From Blastococcus sp. TBT05-19 (lineage in GTDB: Bacteria; Actinomycetota; Actinomycetes; Mycobacteriales; Geodermatophilaceae), in contig NZ_QOHI01000007.1 of the NCBI RefSeq assembly GCF_003319095.1, positions 124,001-188,000 on the forward strand: DNA of 64,000 nucleotides, written 5' to 3'. The position numbers and the translations under genes are program-made. Every line of letters starts with the position of its first letter. Position 1 is the first letter of the stretch. Under the pieces are notes generated by a model. That model was not told the origin of the DNA and did not search any database. It was given only the letters and a program-made list of their open reading frames with translations. Positions 2,877 through 14,155 of this stretch are shown here, piece by piece.

Positions 2877-3625
2877 ACGCCGTCGCCGGCCGGTCGGGCC
2901 GGCCGTTCCTGCTGCTGTCGTCCCGCCCCGAGGACGCCGCGGCCGACCAGGAGCTCGCGTCGTTCCTCCAGGTCACCGGGCTACCCCCGGGCCGGCTGCA
3001 CCGGATCCGGATGGAGGCCGGGCCGCTGCCCTCGCTGGACCTGGACGACTACGCGGGCCTGGTGCTCGGGGGCAGCCCGTTCAACTCCAGCGATCCGCCG
3101 GAGGAGAAGTCGCCGGTCCAGCTGCGGGTGGAGCGCGAGGTGGCGGCGCTGCTCGACGAGGTGGTGGCGCGCGACCTCCCGTTCCTCGGCGCCTGCTACG
3201 GCATCGGCACGCTGGTCACCCACCAGGGCGGCACGGTCGACCGCACGTACGCGGAGCCGATCTCGGCCGTCGAGGTGAGCCTCACCGCGGAGGGACGGCG
3301 GGACCCGCTCCTGTCCGGCGTGCCCGAGCGGTTCGACGCCTTCGTCGGGCACAAGGAGGCCTGCCGGGTGCTCCCGCCCGGGGCGGTGCTGCTCGCGTCG
3401 TCGCCGACCTGCCCGGTCCAGATGTTCCGGGTGCGCCGGAACGTCTACGCCACCCAGTTCCACCCCGAGCTCGACGTCGACGGCCTGGTGGCGAGGGCGC
3501 GGATCTACCAGCACGCCGGGTACTTCCCGCCGGGCGAGCTGGACGACGTGATCGCCCGGGTCGCCGCCGCGGCGGTCACCGAGCCGGCGCGGGTCCTGTC
3601 GAACTTTGTCCGCCGCTACGGCTGA
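2873..3625 (+). CDS. Class I glutamine amidotransferase-like protein
   Basis: A GMP-synthase-like GATase domain of about 250 residues. The nucleophile elbow is FLGACYGIGTLV (Cys) and the distal catalytic pair lies in QFHPELDVDG (His, Glu), so the triad is intact. The likely partner or acceptor is unknown; free-standing homologues are often called glutamine amidotransferase or GMP synthase-like. The first ATG is at 3011, but the frame is clearly coding upstream (RPFLLLSSRPEDAAADQE, typical of the family N-terminus) and contains no ATG, GTG or TTG there. The best candidate is CTG at 2873, which would overlap the expected monooxygenase stop as CTGA. The 3' end overlaps the convergent cimA by 50 bases. 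Confidence 0.75.
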   Translation: MNAVAGRSGRPFLLLSSRPEDAAADQELASFLQVTGLPPGRLHRIRMEAGPLPSLDLDDYAGLVLGGSPFNSSDPPEEKSPVQLRVEREVAALLDEVVARDLPFLGACYGIGTLVTHQGGTVDRTYAEPISAVEVSLTAEGRRDPLLSGVPERFDAFVGHKEACRVLPPGAVLLASSPTCPVQMFRVRRNVYATQFHPELDVDGLVARARIYQHAGYFPPGELDDVIARVAAAAVTEPARVLSNFVRRYG

Positions 3626-5204
3626 GGACGGCGTAGCTGAGCGCGTCGACCAGCGCGTGCCAGGACGCCTCGACCACGTTCGCGTGCACGCCGACCGTGG
3701 TCCACTCCCCCACGCCGTCGGTGGTGTCGATCAGGACCCGCGTGGTGGCGCTCGTGCCACCGCGCCAGCCCAGGATGCGGACCTTGTAGTCGGCCAGCGA
3801 GACGCCGGCCAGCTGCGGGTAGCGGCCCACCAGCGCCTGGCGCAGCGCGTTGTCGAGCGCGTTGACCGGGCCGTTGCCCTCGCCGGTGCTGATGACGCGT
3901 TCCGTCGTCCCGTCGGGGTTGGGCAGGTGCACCTTGACCGTCGCCTCGCTGACCACGACGCCGTTGCCCCAGTGCTCGACGGAGGTCCGGTAGCTCTCCA
4001 GCTCGAACAGCGGGGCCGGGGCGTCGGGCAGCTGGGCGCGCAGGAGGAGCTCGAAGGAGGCGTCGGCGGCCTCGAACGACCAGCCGTCGGCCTCGAGCAC
4101 CTTGACCTGGTCGACGACCCGGCCGATGGCGTCGGAGTGACCGTCGAGGTCGACGCCGAGCTCGCGGCCCTTCAGCTCGACGGAGGCCCGGCCGGCCATC
4201 TCGGTGACCAGGATGCGCATGTCGTTGCCGACGACGGTCGGGTCGAGGTGGTTGTAGAGCTCCGGGCTCACCTTGATGGCGCTGGCGTGCAGCCCGGCCT
4301 TGTGCGCGAACGCCGACGCCCCGACGAAGGGCTGGTGGTCGTCGGGGGCGATGTTGGCGAGCTCCGCGATCGCGTGGCTCACCCGCTGCAGCTCGGGCAG
4401 GCACTCGGCCGGCACCGCCGGGATGCCCATCTTCGTGACCAGGTTGGCCACGAGCACGAACGTGTCGGCGTTGCCGGCCCGCTCGCCGTAGCCGTTCGCC
4501 GTCCCCTGCACGTGCGTGACCCCGGCCTCGACGGCGGCGAGGGTGTTGGCGACCGCGCAGCCGGTGTCGTCCTGGCAGTGGATGCCGAGCTTCCCGCCCA
4601 CCCGCGACCGCACGTCGGCCACGACCCGGCCGACGCCCATCGGCAGCATCCCGCCGTTGGTGTCGCACAGGACGCCGACCTCCGCGCCGGCCGCGAACGC
4701 CGTCTCCAGCACCCGGACGCCGTAGCCGGGGTCGGCGGCGTACCCGTCGAAGAAGTGCTCGCAGTCGACGAACACGCGGCGGCCGTGCGCCACGAGGAAC
4801 GCGACGGTGTCGGCCACCATCGCCAGGTTCTCCTCCGGGGTGGTCCGCAGCGCGTCGCGCACGTGGCGGACGTCGGACTTGGCGACCAGGCAGACCACCG
4901 GCGTCCCGGCGTCCAGCAACGCCCGCACCTGCAGGTCGTCCTCGACCCGGACGCCGGCCTTCCGGGTCGCGCCGAACGCGACCAGCTGGGCGTGCCGCAG
5001 CTTGAGCTCGGTGCGCGCCCGGGCGAAGAACTCGGTGTCCTTGGGGAGCGCCCCCGGCCAGCCGCCCTCGATGAACCCGACCCCGATCTCGTCCAGCAGG
5101 CGGGCGACCGCGAGCTTGTCGGCGACCGAGTAGCTGATGCCCTCGCGCTGGGCGCCGTCGCGCAGCGTGGTGTCGAAGACGTGGAAGTCGGTGTCGCTGG
5201 GCAC
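3576..5204 (-). CDS. cimA: (R)-citramalate synthase
   Basis: A 542-residue LeuA-superfamily enzyme condensing pyruvate and acetyl-CoA to citramalate, the entry step of the threonine-independent isoleucine route. The N-terminal TIM barrel opens with FDTTLRDGAQREGISYS (catalytic Arg-Asp); metal-site motif GIHCQDDTGCAVAN and GTANGYGERAGNAD follow; the C-terminal regulatory domain (from about residue 400) is the LeuA-type allosteric fold that senses the end product. The usual HxH metal motif reads H-C-Q here. GTG at 5202-5204 has GAGGAG six bases upstream. An Ile-Ile-Ile leader peptide and terminator precede it, supporting isoleucine control and favouring citramalate over isopropylmalate synthase. 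leuB lies directly upstream on the same strand. Confidence 0.9.
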   Translation of the reverse strand: MPSDTDFHVFDTTLRDGAQREGISYSVADKLAVARLLDEIGVGFIEGGWPGALPKDTEFFARARTELKLRHAQLVAFGATRKAGVRVEDDLQVRALLDAGTPVVCLVAKSDVRHVRDALRTTPEENLAMVADTVAFLVAHGRRVFVDCEHFFDGYAADPGYGVRVLETAFAAGAEVGVLCDTNGGMLPMGVGRVVADVRSRVGGKLGIHCQDDTGCAVANTLAAVEAGVTHVQGTANGYGERAGNADTFVLVANLVTKMGIPAVPAECLPELQRVSHAIAELANIAPDDHQPFVGASAFAHKAGLHASAIKVSPELYNHLDPTVVGNDMRILVTEMAGRASVELKGRELGVDLDGHSDAIGRVVDQVKVLEADGWSFEAADASFELLLRAQLPDAPAPLFELESYRTSVEHWGNGVVVSEATVKVHLPNPDGTTERVISTGEGNGPVNALDNALRQALVGRYPQLAGVSLADYKVRILGWRGGTSATTRVLIDTTDGVGEWTTVGVHANVVEASWHALVDALSYAVLSRSGGQSSTGPAPAR

Positions 5205-5244: not shown

Positions 5245-5271
5245 AAAAAGACCCCCCGGGTACGGGAGGTC
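5245..5271 (-). terminator. Attenuator terminator before cimA
   Basis: On the minus strand a stem of nine positions (5250-5258 with 5263-5271, one mismatch, four-base loop) is followed by five U residues (5245-5249). It lies between the leader peptide and the cimA ribosome-binding site, so it would stop transcription before cimA when isoleucyl-tRNA is plentiful. Confidence 0.75.
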
Positions 5272-5272
5272 G

Positions 5273-5299
5273 GCGCGCAGTCGGAGGGTGACTGCGCGC
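5273..5299 (-). promoter_or_regulatory. Attenuator upstream hairpin, overlapping the leader stop codon
   Basis: A perfect 10-bp stem (5273-5282 with 5290-5299, seven-base loop) begins at the last base of the leader-peptide TAG. Ribosome position on the leader would decide whether it forms. Its position between leader and terminator fits the role of a pause or antiterminator element; the exact competing pairing was not modelled. Confidence 0.6.
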
Positions 5300-5331
5300 T
5301 AGGCGATGATGATCGAGCGGTGGGGGGTCAT
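5299..5331 (-). CDS. Isoleucine leader peptide of cimA (10 residues)
   Basis: ATG at 5329-5331 opens a ten-codon frame, MTPHRSIIIA, ending in TAG. Three consecutive ATC isoleucine codons followed within a few bases by two hairpins, the second with a U tract, is the signature of ribosome-mediated transcription attenuation. Stalling on ATC codons when isoleucyl-tRNA is scarce would let transcription continue into cimA. The peptide itself has no expected function. No strong Shine-Dalgarno sequence is present (GGGCGGCG lies directly upstream). Confidence 0.75.
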   Translation of the reverse strand: MTPHRSIIIA

Positions 5332-5448
5332 CGCCGCCCAGTGAAGCACGTCCGCTCACCGGATGGAACGGACCGTCCACATGATGGGACGGCGGCCGGC
5401 AGCCCCGGCGGCGGTTCCGGCTCGGGGGCCCGAGCCGGAACCGCCCGC

Positions 5449-13968: not shown

Positions 13969-14051
13969 CGCGCGGATCTCCTGTGCCTTGCGGCGTGGTT
14001 CGGGCTGGTGCGACGGACAGCGTGCTCGCGGTACGGCAGGTCACGGCCAAC

Positions 14052-14082
14052 AAAAAACCCCTCGTGCCCAGGGCACGAAGGG
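14052..14082 (-). terminator. Attenuator terminator before ilvB
   Basis: Minus-strand stem 14058-14068 with 14072-14082 (one mismatch, three-base loop) followed by six U residues (14052-14057). It lies about 85 bases before the ilvB start and downstream of the leader peptide. Confidence 0.8.
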
Positions 14083-14085
14083 TCA

Positions 14086-14111
14086 GCGCGTCGGTCGGTG
14101 ACCGGACGCGC
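14086..14111 (-). promoter_or_regulatory. Attenuator upstream hairpin before ilvB
   Basis: A 7-bp outer stem (14086-14092 with 14105-14111) continues inward as GGTC/GACC with one bulge. Its 5' arm begins within the leader-peptide stop codon, mirroring the cimA leader. Confidence 0.6.
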
Positions 14112-14155
14112 TACGCGAGTACGAGGACGCCGCTGGTGCGGGCGTCTGCGGGCAT
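14111..14155 (-). CDS. Branched-chain leader peptide of ilvBNC (14 residues)
   Basis: ATG at 14153-14155 opens MPADARTSGVLVLA ending in TAG. The last residues before the stop are Val-Leu-Val-Leu (GTC CTC GTA CTC), two of the three amino acids whose synthesis the downstream operon supports. Two hairpins follow, the second with a six-U tract, as expected for ribosome-mediated attenuation. Upstream initiation signals are weak. I see no isoleucine codon, so control by valine and leucine is the prediction. Confidence 0.75.
   Translation of the reverse strand: MPADARTSGVLVLA

Follow-up and report, generated by a model that had tools for sequence, protein, structure and literature searches.

A putative isoleucine-responsive leader upstream of the citramalate synthase gene cimA in Actinomycetota

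The stretch of DNA analysed here, called the window throughout, comprises 64,000 nucleotides from Blastococcus sp. TBT05-19. It carries the citramalate synthase gene cimA, with leuB as the gene directly upstream of the cimA leader. Between leuB and cimA lie a promoter-like hexamer, a very short reading frame, a hairpin (hairpin A) and an intrinsic terminator (Table 1). The leader frame opens with ATG at 5331-5329 on the minus strand; the ATC run is followed by a single GCC codon and by the TAG stop (5301-5299). The arms of hairpin A are GCGCGCAGTC and GACTGCGCGC, closed by a loop of 7 nt, and one base separates the hairpin from the terminator in the window copy. Further downstream, a GGAG ribosome-binding site precedes the GTG start of cimA at 5204. 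The original prediction had described a ten-codon frame with three ATC codons, a perfect 10-bp hairpin, a terminator with five U residues and a ribosome-binding site; this architecture is exact, base for base.

Table 1. Features of the cimA leader and related elements in the window
Feature	Positions	Strand	Basis and remarks
−10-like hexamer TTCACT	5340..5345	−	8 nt before the leader ATG; putative promoter, from sequence
Leader frame MTPHRSIIIA, then stop	5299..5331	−	10 codons, without Shine-Dalgarno sequence, probably leaderless
Three ATC (Ile) codons, proposed sensing codons	5305..5313	−	sequence and comparison of frames
Hairpin A, 10 perfect bp	5273..5299	−	first base is the G of the TAG stop
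Intrinsic terminator, stem-loop 5271-5250 and U5 5249-5245	5245..5271	−	scan, folding, alignment
cimA, citramalate synthase	3576..5204	−	TIGR00977, 600.2 bits, cut-off 450
ilvB leader of the same layout, Val/Leu codons, MPRTSMPADARTSGVLVLA, then stop	14049..14125	−	covariance model, 46.1 bits, E 1.7e-9

Six stretches of the leader were folded and compared with dinucleotide shuffles. Their z values range from −3.2 to −6.4, and none of 200 shuffles folded equally well, with the exception of the terminator alone (1/200). The terminator scan returned a single site, in three overlapping registers, where 0.1 were expected. Rfam gave no match above its gathering score in the window. A GC-rich inverted repeat, which has no U tract, is also present just past the leuB stop (5412-5446).

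The product of the downstream gene scores well above the cut-off of the citramalate synthase family, and the 2-isopropylmalate synthase models among those listed fall below theirs. Its identity as CimA rather than LeuA agrees with the original prediction. However, the leader had been proposed as a help in this assignment, which is already given by the protein family.

Two features of the leader had escaped mention in the earlier description: the frame is preceded by no Shine-Dalgarno sequence, and a −10-like box is found 8 nt upstream. This box is degenerate, the A at position 2 being missing. A second in-frame GTG is located 18 nt upstream of the ATG. Among 151 distinct leaders of the comparative set described below, the pattern NANNNT occurs 95 times at 6-8 nt upstream of the start, compared with 30 occurrences over all remaining gaps between 3 and 15 nt, as counted with a start rule blind to promoters. 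The more specific TNNACT is present in 23 of the 29 annotated Geodermatophilaceae loci L005-L034. Shine-Dalgarno-like 4-mers accompany seven of the 151 leader frames (within the 13 nt before them) versus 109 of 151 cimA starts, for which a wider stretch of 28 nt around the start was considered. The frame is thus probably leaderless, with the transcript starting at or next to its start codon; promoter and start are both deduced from the sequence. Such a leaderless pattern has been reported for several leader peptides of Streptomyces lividans (PMC8079986). In the fold of the window copy, the leader start pairs with the Ile codons, a pairing that would draw on bases upstream of the likely transcription start.

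Distribution and codon content of the cimA leaders

The best 80 of at least 590 titled cimA loci were fetched, and 78 remained after setting aside two which begin too close to cimA. Matches at E ≤ 1e-150 were obtained in 102 of 112 genomes by a scan of the family, and at E ≤ 1e-130 in 304 of 394 genomes by a scan of the class; 60 further upstream regions were taken. The original prediction named conservation of the small frame, its Ile codons and both hairpins as the comparative test. These elements co-occur in Geodermatophilaceae, in Micromonosporaceae and at many other loci of the class, the same layout being also found in a Stackebrandtia and in Nanopelagicales MAGs. Orthologous leaders that keep the hairpins and lose the Ile codons, which had been named as the refuting case, were not what was observed. 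In one densely sampled genus with large genomes, which is probably Streptomyces, the Streptomyces-like leaders read like MLSFAMIIGSRRAGPQ followed by a stop and hairpin A is much longer.

A covariance model of the leader was built from 64 sequences: 15 of 154 leaders were dropped, near-identical ones were removed (139 to 96), and 64 of these 96 were aligned. Of 168 loci, no two of which are identical in the 150 nt upstream, 144 have a match of the model before cimA (75/78 titled, 69/90 class-wide); L085-L114 stood outside both searches. Since 62 of the 168 had trained the model, the relevant figure for loci outside the training is 82 matches in 106. In the model-fitted alignment (66 distinct rows), 98.5% of the cells are paired, and both-side changes occur in 69 cells of the two helices versus 18.4 in shuffles and 1-6 in slid structures; this alignment was fitted to the structure and four of the six counted hairpin A pairs are invariant in it. 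Pairs 6-10 of hairpin A show several pair types in single-sequence folds, where standard pairing holds by construction because the pairs were taken from each sequence's own fold.

The model finds no match at the other 24 of the 168 loci (L059, L066, L073; L116, L121, L128, L141, L142, L163-L169, L179-L183, L189, L196, L198, L201), among them all ten loci of family f20 and all six of family f28 that were examined. At L059, L128, L179-L183 and L196 an open frame extends to 14 nt or less from the start of cimA, giving the appearance that cimA lies directly behind another gene. In family f28, with genomes of 1.2-1.9 Mb, the open frame of L179-L183 ends at most 4 nt from the cimA start, and no leader is seen there. 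In family f20 (L163-L169, L116, L141, L142), cimA is preceded by neither an Ile leader nor a terminator, and some of these loci, as read by eye, seem to retain an A-like GCGCG hairpin.

Leader frames contain one Ile codon in 10, two in 73, three in 51 and four in 6 of the 140 distinct frames, and therefore at least two in 130. The presence of an Ile codon as such is not independent evidence, because the frame finder demanded at least one; it also picked starts partly by the −10 box. Most frames nevertheless contain more than the one codon demanded, and their distance to hairpin A is fixed. The non-Ile residues of the frames vary.

For the counts of Ile codons and of codon choice, five loci with misassigned frames and the frames not divisible by three were excluded. 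In Micromonosporaceae, AUU accounts for 45 of 52 sensing Ile codons; in the cimA bodies it makes up 4 of 401, and among the other codons of the same frames 12 of 194 end in A or T. The corresponding AUU counts are 8/67 versus 1/339 in Geodermatophilaceae and 75/152 versus 10/434 class-wide, other frame codons ending in A or T in 94 of 605 cases. The preference in several groups for an otherwise rare codon suggests selection on decoding speed at the sensing positions. In the window, all three sensing codons are AUC, not the otherwise rare AUU.

Leaders before other branched-chain genes

Across the 3.9-Mb genome as a whole, three matches of the leader model reach E < 0.001; they lie before cimA, ilvB and leuS. 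The ilvB leader presents VLVL in a leaderless-type GTG frame. The leuS leader (L207, 1490-1580, plus strand) encodes MTGRLLLLRPC and is followed by two hairpins and a U tract; the leuS protein is truncated by the end of the locus and hence falls under the full-length cut-off. A leader is also found before leuA of this genome (L002, about 2725-2660, minus strand), where the frame MRGSLLLTRRGEALS contains LLL and ends in a stop. It is not matched by the leader model, no U-tract terminator was seen at this position, and a TACCGT hexamer lies six nt before the frame; we assign it to the LEU-element type. The tuning of cimA specifically to isoleucine, as originally proposed, gains support from the fact that the other leaders of the same genome carry codons matching their genes: Ile runs stand before cimA, versus VLVL before ilvB, LLLL before leuS and LLL before leuA.

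With strict filters, a scan of the phylum returned matches at E ≤ 0.01 in 102 of 396 genomes. Twenty-nine newly fetched loci were compared with cimA, ilvB and leuS only: 14 matches lie before cimA and 12 before ilvB (one of them, L228, at about 0.5 kb). The remaining three were read by eye and lie before leuA (MSQNLLLT), before a leuB-ilvE pair (NAVIIIE) and at a place without assigned gene. The second of these, found outside the class (L235, 1440-1580, plus strand), ends its frame with NAVIIIE and a stop, which suggests isoleucine control of leuB in that organism. The ilvB leaders elsewhere contain Val, Leu and Ile codons. In the 15 leaders outside the class (L224-L238) and in the ilvB leader of the window, a single codon stands between the last branched-chain codon and the stop; in the leuS leader there are three.

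From these leaders a wider view can be drawn tentatively, as a possibility which we would stop short of calling probable: a single modular cassette might serve several branched-chain genes of Actinomycetota, the codons alone being changed. Its order would be a leaderless frame, the sensing codons, usually one spacer codon, the stop, hairpin A and the abutting terminator, and antitermination would be steric, through a joined hairpin that does not overlap the terminator. Leaders of this kind need not act as attenuators, since mutations of the leader codons of Streptomyces coelicolor ilvB are reported to have had no effect on regulation (PMC1262725).

Ribosome position and the proposed mechanism

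Leader geometry was measured for hairpins A no longer than 45 nt. The end of the last Ile codon is 5 nt from hairpin A in 94 of 143 leaders and 8 nt from it in 31. In 103 leaders the stop is positioned at the base of A (−4 to −2), and in 36 it falls 7-16 nt inside A. The junction between A and the terminator is 0-1 nt in 132 of these 143 leaders, and in 141 of 154 when hairpins of any length are counted; the folding for this measure reached no more than 2 nt into the terminator arm, which limits the overlaps it can show to 2 nt, and five were seen. As to whether ordinary terminators avoid an abutting hairpin, five of 15 terminators classed as other abut one (four of these five are also leaders), compared with 16 of 150 shuffled upstream stretches.

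The effect of the ribosome was calculated by partition-function folding, in which the ribosome footprint was masked to 12 nt past the start of the A-site codon; six E. coli leaders served as controls. This calculation does allow overlaps beyond 2 nt. It covered 135 of the 154 leaders, 15 having been removed by hand (misassigned hairpin A or start, or an unusually long A, such as that of the Streptomyces-like leaders) and four automatically. When the first Ile codon occupies the A site, 133 of 135 leaders are predicted to form hairpin A at a probability over 0.5; the number drops to 33 for the last Ile codon and to zero for the stop codon. Only the earlier Ile codons could therefore serve for sensing, because A is mostly lost when the ribosome stands on the last one.

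For the cimA leaders, the finished terminator is predicted whatever the state, with medians of 0.98-0.99. This constancy proves nothing alone, because five of the six E. coli leaders (phe excepted) stay above 0.9 in both states too. The informative measure is how far the terminator 5′ arm is sequestered while the 3′ arm has yet to be made. In the E. coli thr, trp, leu, ilv and phe leaders, the 5′ arm is sequestered to 0.46-0.84 at the stall and to 0.005-0.20 at the stop, whereas the his leader gives about 0.60 in both states and does not switch. For the cimA leaders the medians are 0.11 at the stall versus 0.29 at the stop, a change opposite in direction to the classic one. In 126 of 135 leaders the stalled state gives no higher sequestration than the state with the ribosome at the stop, and two leaders exceed 0.46, the lowest stall value among the five switching E. 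coli leaders. An overlapping antiterminator was thus not found in the 135 leaders by ribosome-masked folding, a calculation to which pseudoknots are external. Since the 5′ arm is more sequestered at the stop, stalling should not relieve termination on base pairing alone.

A classical three-hairpin attenuator of the E. coli trp type was considered and rejected, as no antiterminator taking up the terminator 5′ arm was found in this calculation. The leader nevertheless combines a frame with codons for the product amino acid, an intrinsic terminator and a hairpin whose calculated formation depends on ribosome position. We consider it highly likely, from the sequence comparisons, that the cimA leader is an isoleucine-responsive, ribosome-mediated transcription attenuator. 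The term fits the logic and not the usual base-pair switch, because the textbook antiterminator was not found.

In the mechanism that we propose, transcription would begin at or beside the ATG or GTG of a very short frame ending in consecutive Ile codons. When charged Ile-tRNA is plentiful, the ribosome would reach the stop and cover the 5′ arm of hairpin A; the terminator would then fold and RNA polymerase would presumably halt before cimA. When Ile-tRNA is short, the ribosome would wait on the first Ile codon with its front edge just short of A, leaving this hairpin free to form, and cimA would be read. How A might prevent termination is a matter of conjecture. We propose that it acts sterically, by abutting the terminator base within RNA polymerase, because no overlapping antiterminator was found while A abuts the terminator.

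Several alternatives bear on this last step or on the reading as a whole. Hairpin A might be a pause or timing hairpin for RNA polymerase, or might shield the terminator from the ribosome, antitermination being then due to a factor (NusG, NusA or Rho). The terminator lies directly 3′ of A and the two do not compete for pairing, as this reading would expect; a pause hairpin alone, however, does not account for the tight junction of 0-1 nt or for the near-invariant lower pairs of A, and we hold the explanation to be somewhat unlikely. Alternatively, once A has formed, its C-rich loop could pair with the G-rich 3′ arm of the terminator in a pseudoknot. Pairing of the P1 loop region with the right shoulder of the terminator has been proposed for the Corynebacterium ilvB-II motif (PMC10272879), and GGACCCC is present in the loops of L117, L138, L157 and L160, which pair better than shuffled versions of themselves (p 0.0 to 0.04). 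For the window loop, ACCCTCC, a pairing of −11.5 kcal/mol is possible, but with p = 0.34. Over 105 distinct loop/arm combinations the mean energy is −6.9 kcal/mol versus −6.2 with shuffled loops (mean p 0.46; 7.6% at p ≤ 0.05), and the loops of 4-5 nt in some leaders could barely pair. We judge the pseudoknot quite unlikely: by these predicted energies, loop-terminator pairing is unsupported as a general mechanism but may apply in single lineages.

Control could also be translational, by sequestering the cimA ribosome-binding site. Such control has been suggested for the ileS T-boxes of Actinobacteria, and in the LEU element of leuA the Shine-Dalgarno box takes part in the base stem (PMC1262725). 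Among the leaders listed, however, terminator and cimA are anywhere between 12 and 159 nt apart, and the terminator retains its U tract, which makes this option very improbable. Hardly conceivable is a constitutive terminator of the upstream gene accompanied by a small frame arisen by chance. The position of leuB directly upstream in the window would fit it; the Ile codons, the frame, the position of the stop and the promoter-like box nevertheless accompany the terminator in a large set of loci, and leaders of this layout, with different codons, stand before ilvB and leuS.

If the attenuator reading is true, the citramalate route to isoleucine is placed under its own isoleucine sensor in many Actinomycetia. 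The leaders constitute a natural set of more than 100 in which no textbook antiterminator was found, and they make a question testable: can an abutting, non-overlapping hairpin stop an intrinsic terminator? The codon swaps among the cimA, ilvB, leuS and leuA leaders provide natural controls.

Comparison with known systems

The logic of attenuation is known; what would be new, as judged from sequence, is the gene, cimA, and a terminator switch for which an overlapping antiterminator was looked for and not found. A cimA attenuator was not encountered in Rfam or in the open-access literature, as covered by titles and abstract openings (supplements and most subscription papers lie outside this coverage). 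The available text on S. lividans tabulates eight leader peptides, none of them for cimA (PMC8079986), and another report concerns ilvB1 of Mycobacterium tuberculosis (PMC13236596).

Seliverstov et al. (2005) described candidates for tryptophan, cysteine and leucine metabolism together with ileS T-boxes, the other amino acid pathways being reported without conserved structures (PMC1262725). The cimA leader resembles their actinobacterial ilvB and leuS candidates, in which short frames with Ile/Val/Leu or Leu codons stand before terminators, and the ilvB and leuS leaders of the window's genome are probably of this kind; cimA is absent from the text of that study as far as available (PMC1262725). 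The LEU element before actinobacterial leuA comprises a frame with Leu codons, and a leaderless-type frame of this sort precedes leuA in the window's genome. This element has been proposed to bind a protein, and its base stem pairs the Leu codons with the Shine-Dalgarno box (PMC1262725).

With the E. coli trp, thr, leu, ilv, phe and his attenuators, the cimA leader shares a short frame with runs of the sensed amino acid, a hairpin and a terminator. Unlike in five of these six, the 5′ arm of its terminator is not predicted to be sequestered on stalling. The ilvBNC attenuator of Corynebacterium glutamicum and the ilvB-II motif are also similar: a leader peptide with branched-chain codons and a terminator before a branched-chain gene are associated with adjacent hairpins (PMC11857589, PMC10272879). 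For ilvBNC, the transcript is reported to start one nt from the leader start, the Val codons to be necessary for the valine response, and the antiterminator and terminator to be adjacent with only GCC in common (PMC11857589). In contrast to the mixed Ile, Val and Leu codons and the shared GCC of ilvBNC, the run in the cimA leader consists of Ile codons, and in most cimA leaders the two hairpins stand side by side with no base in common.
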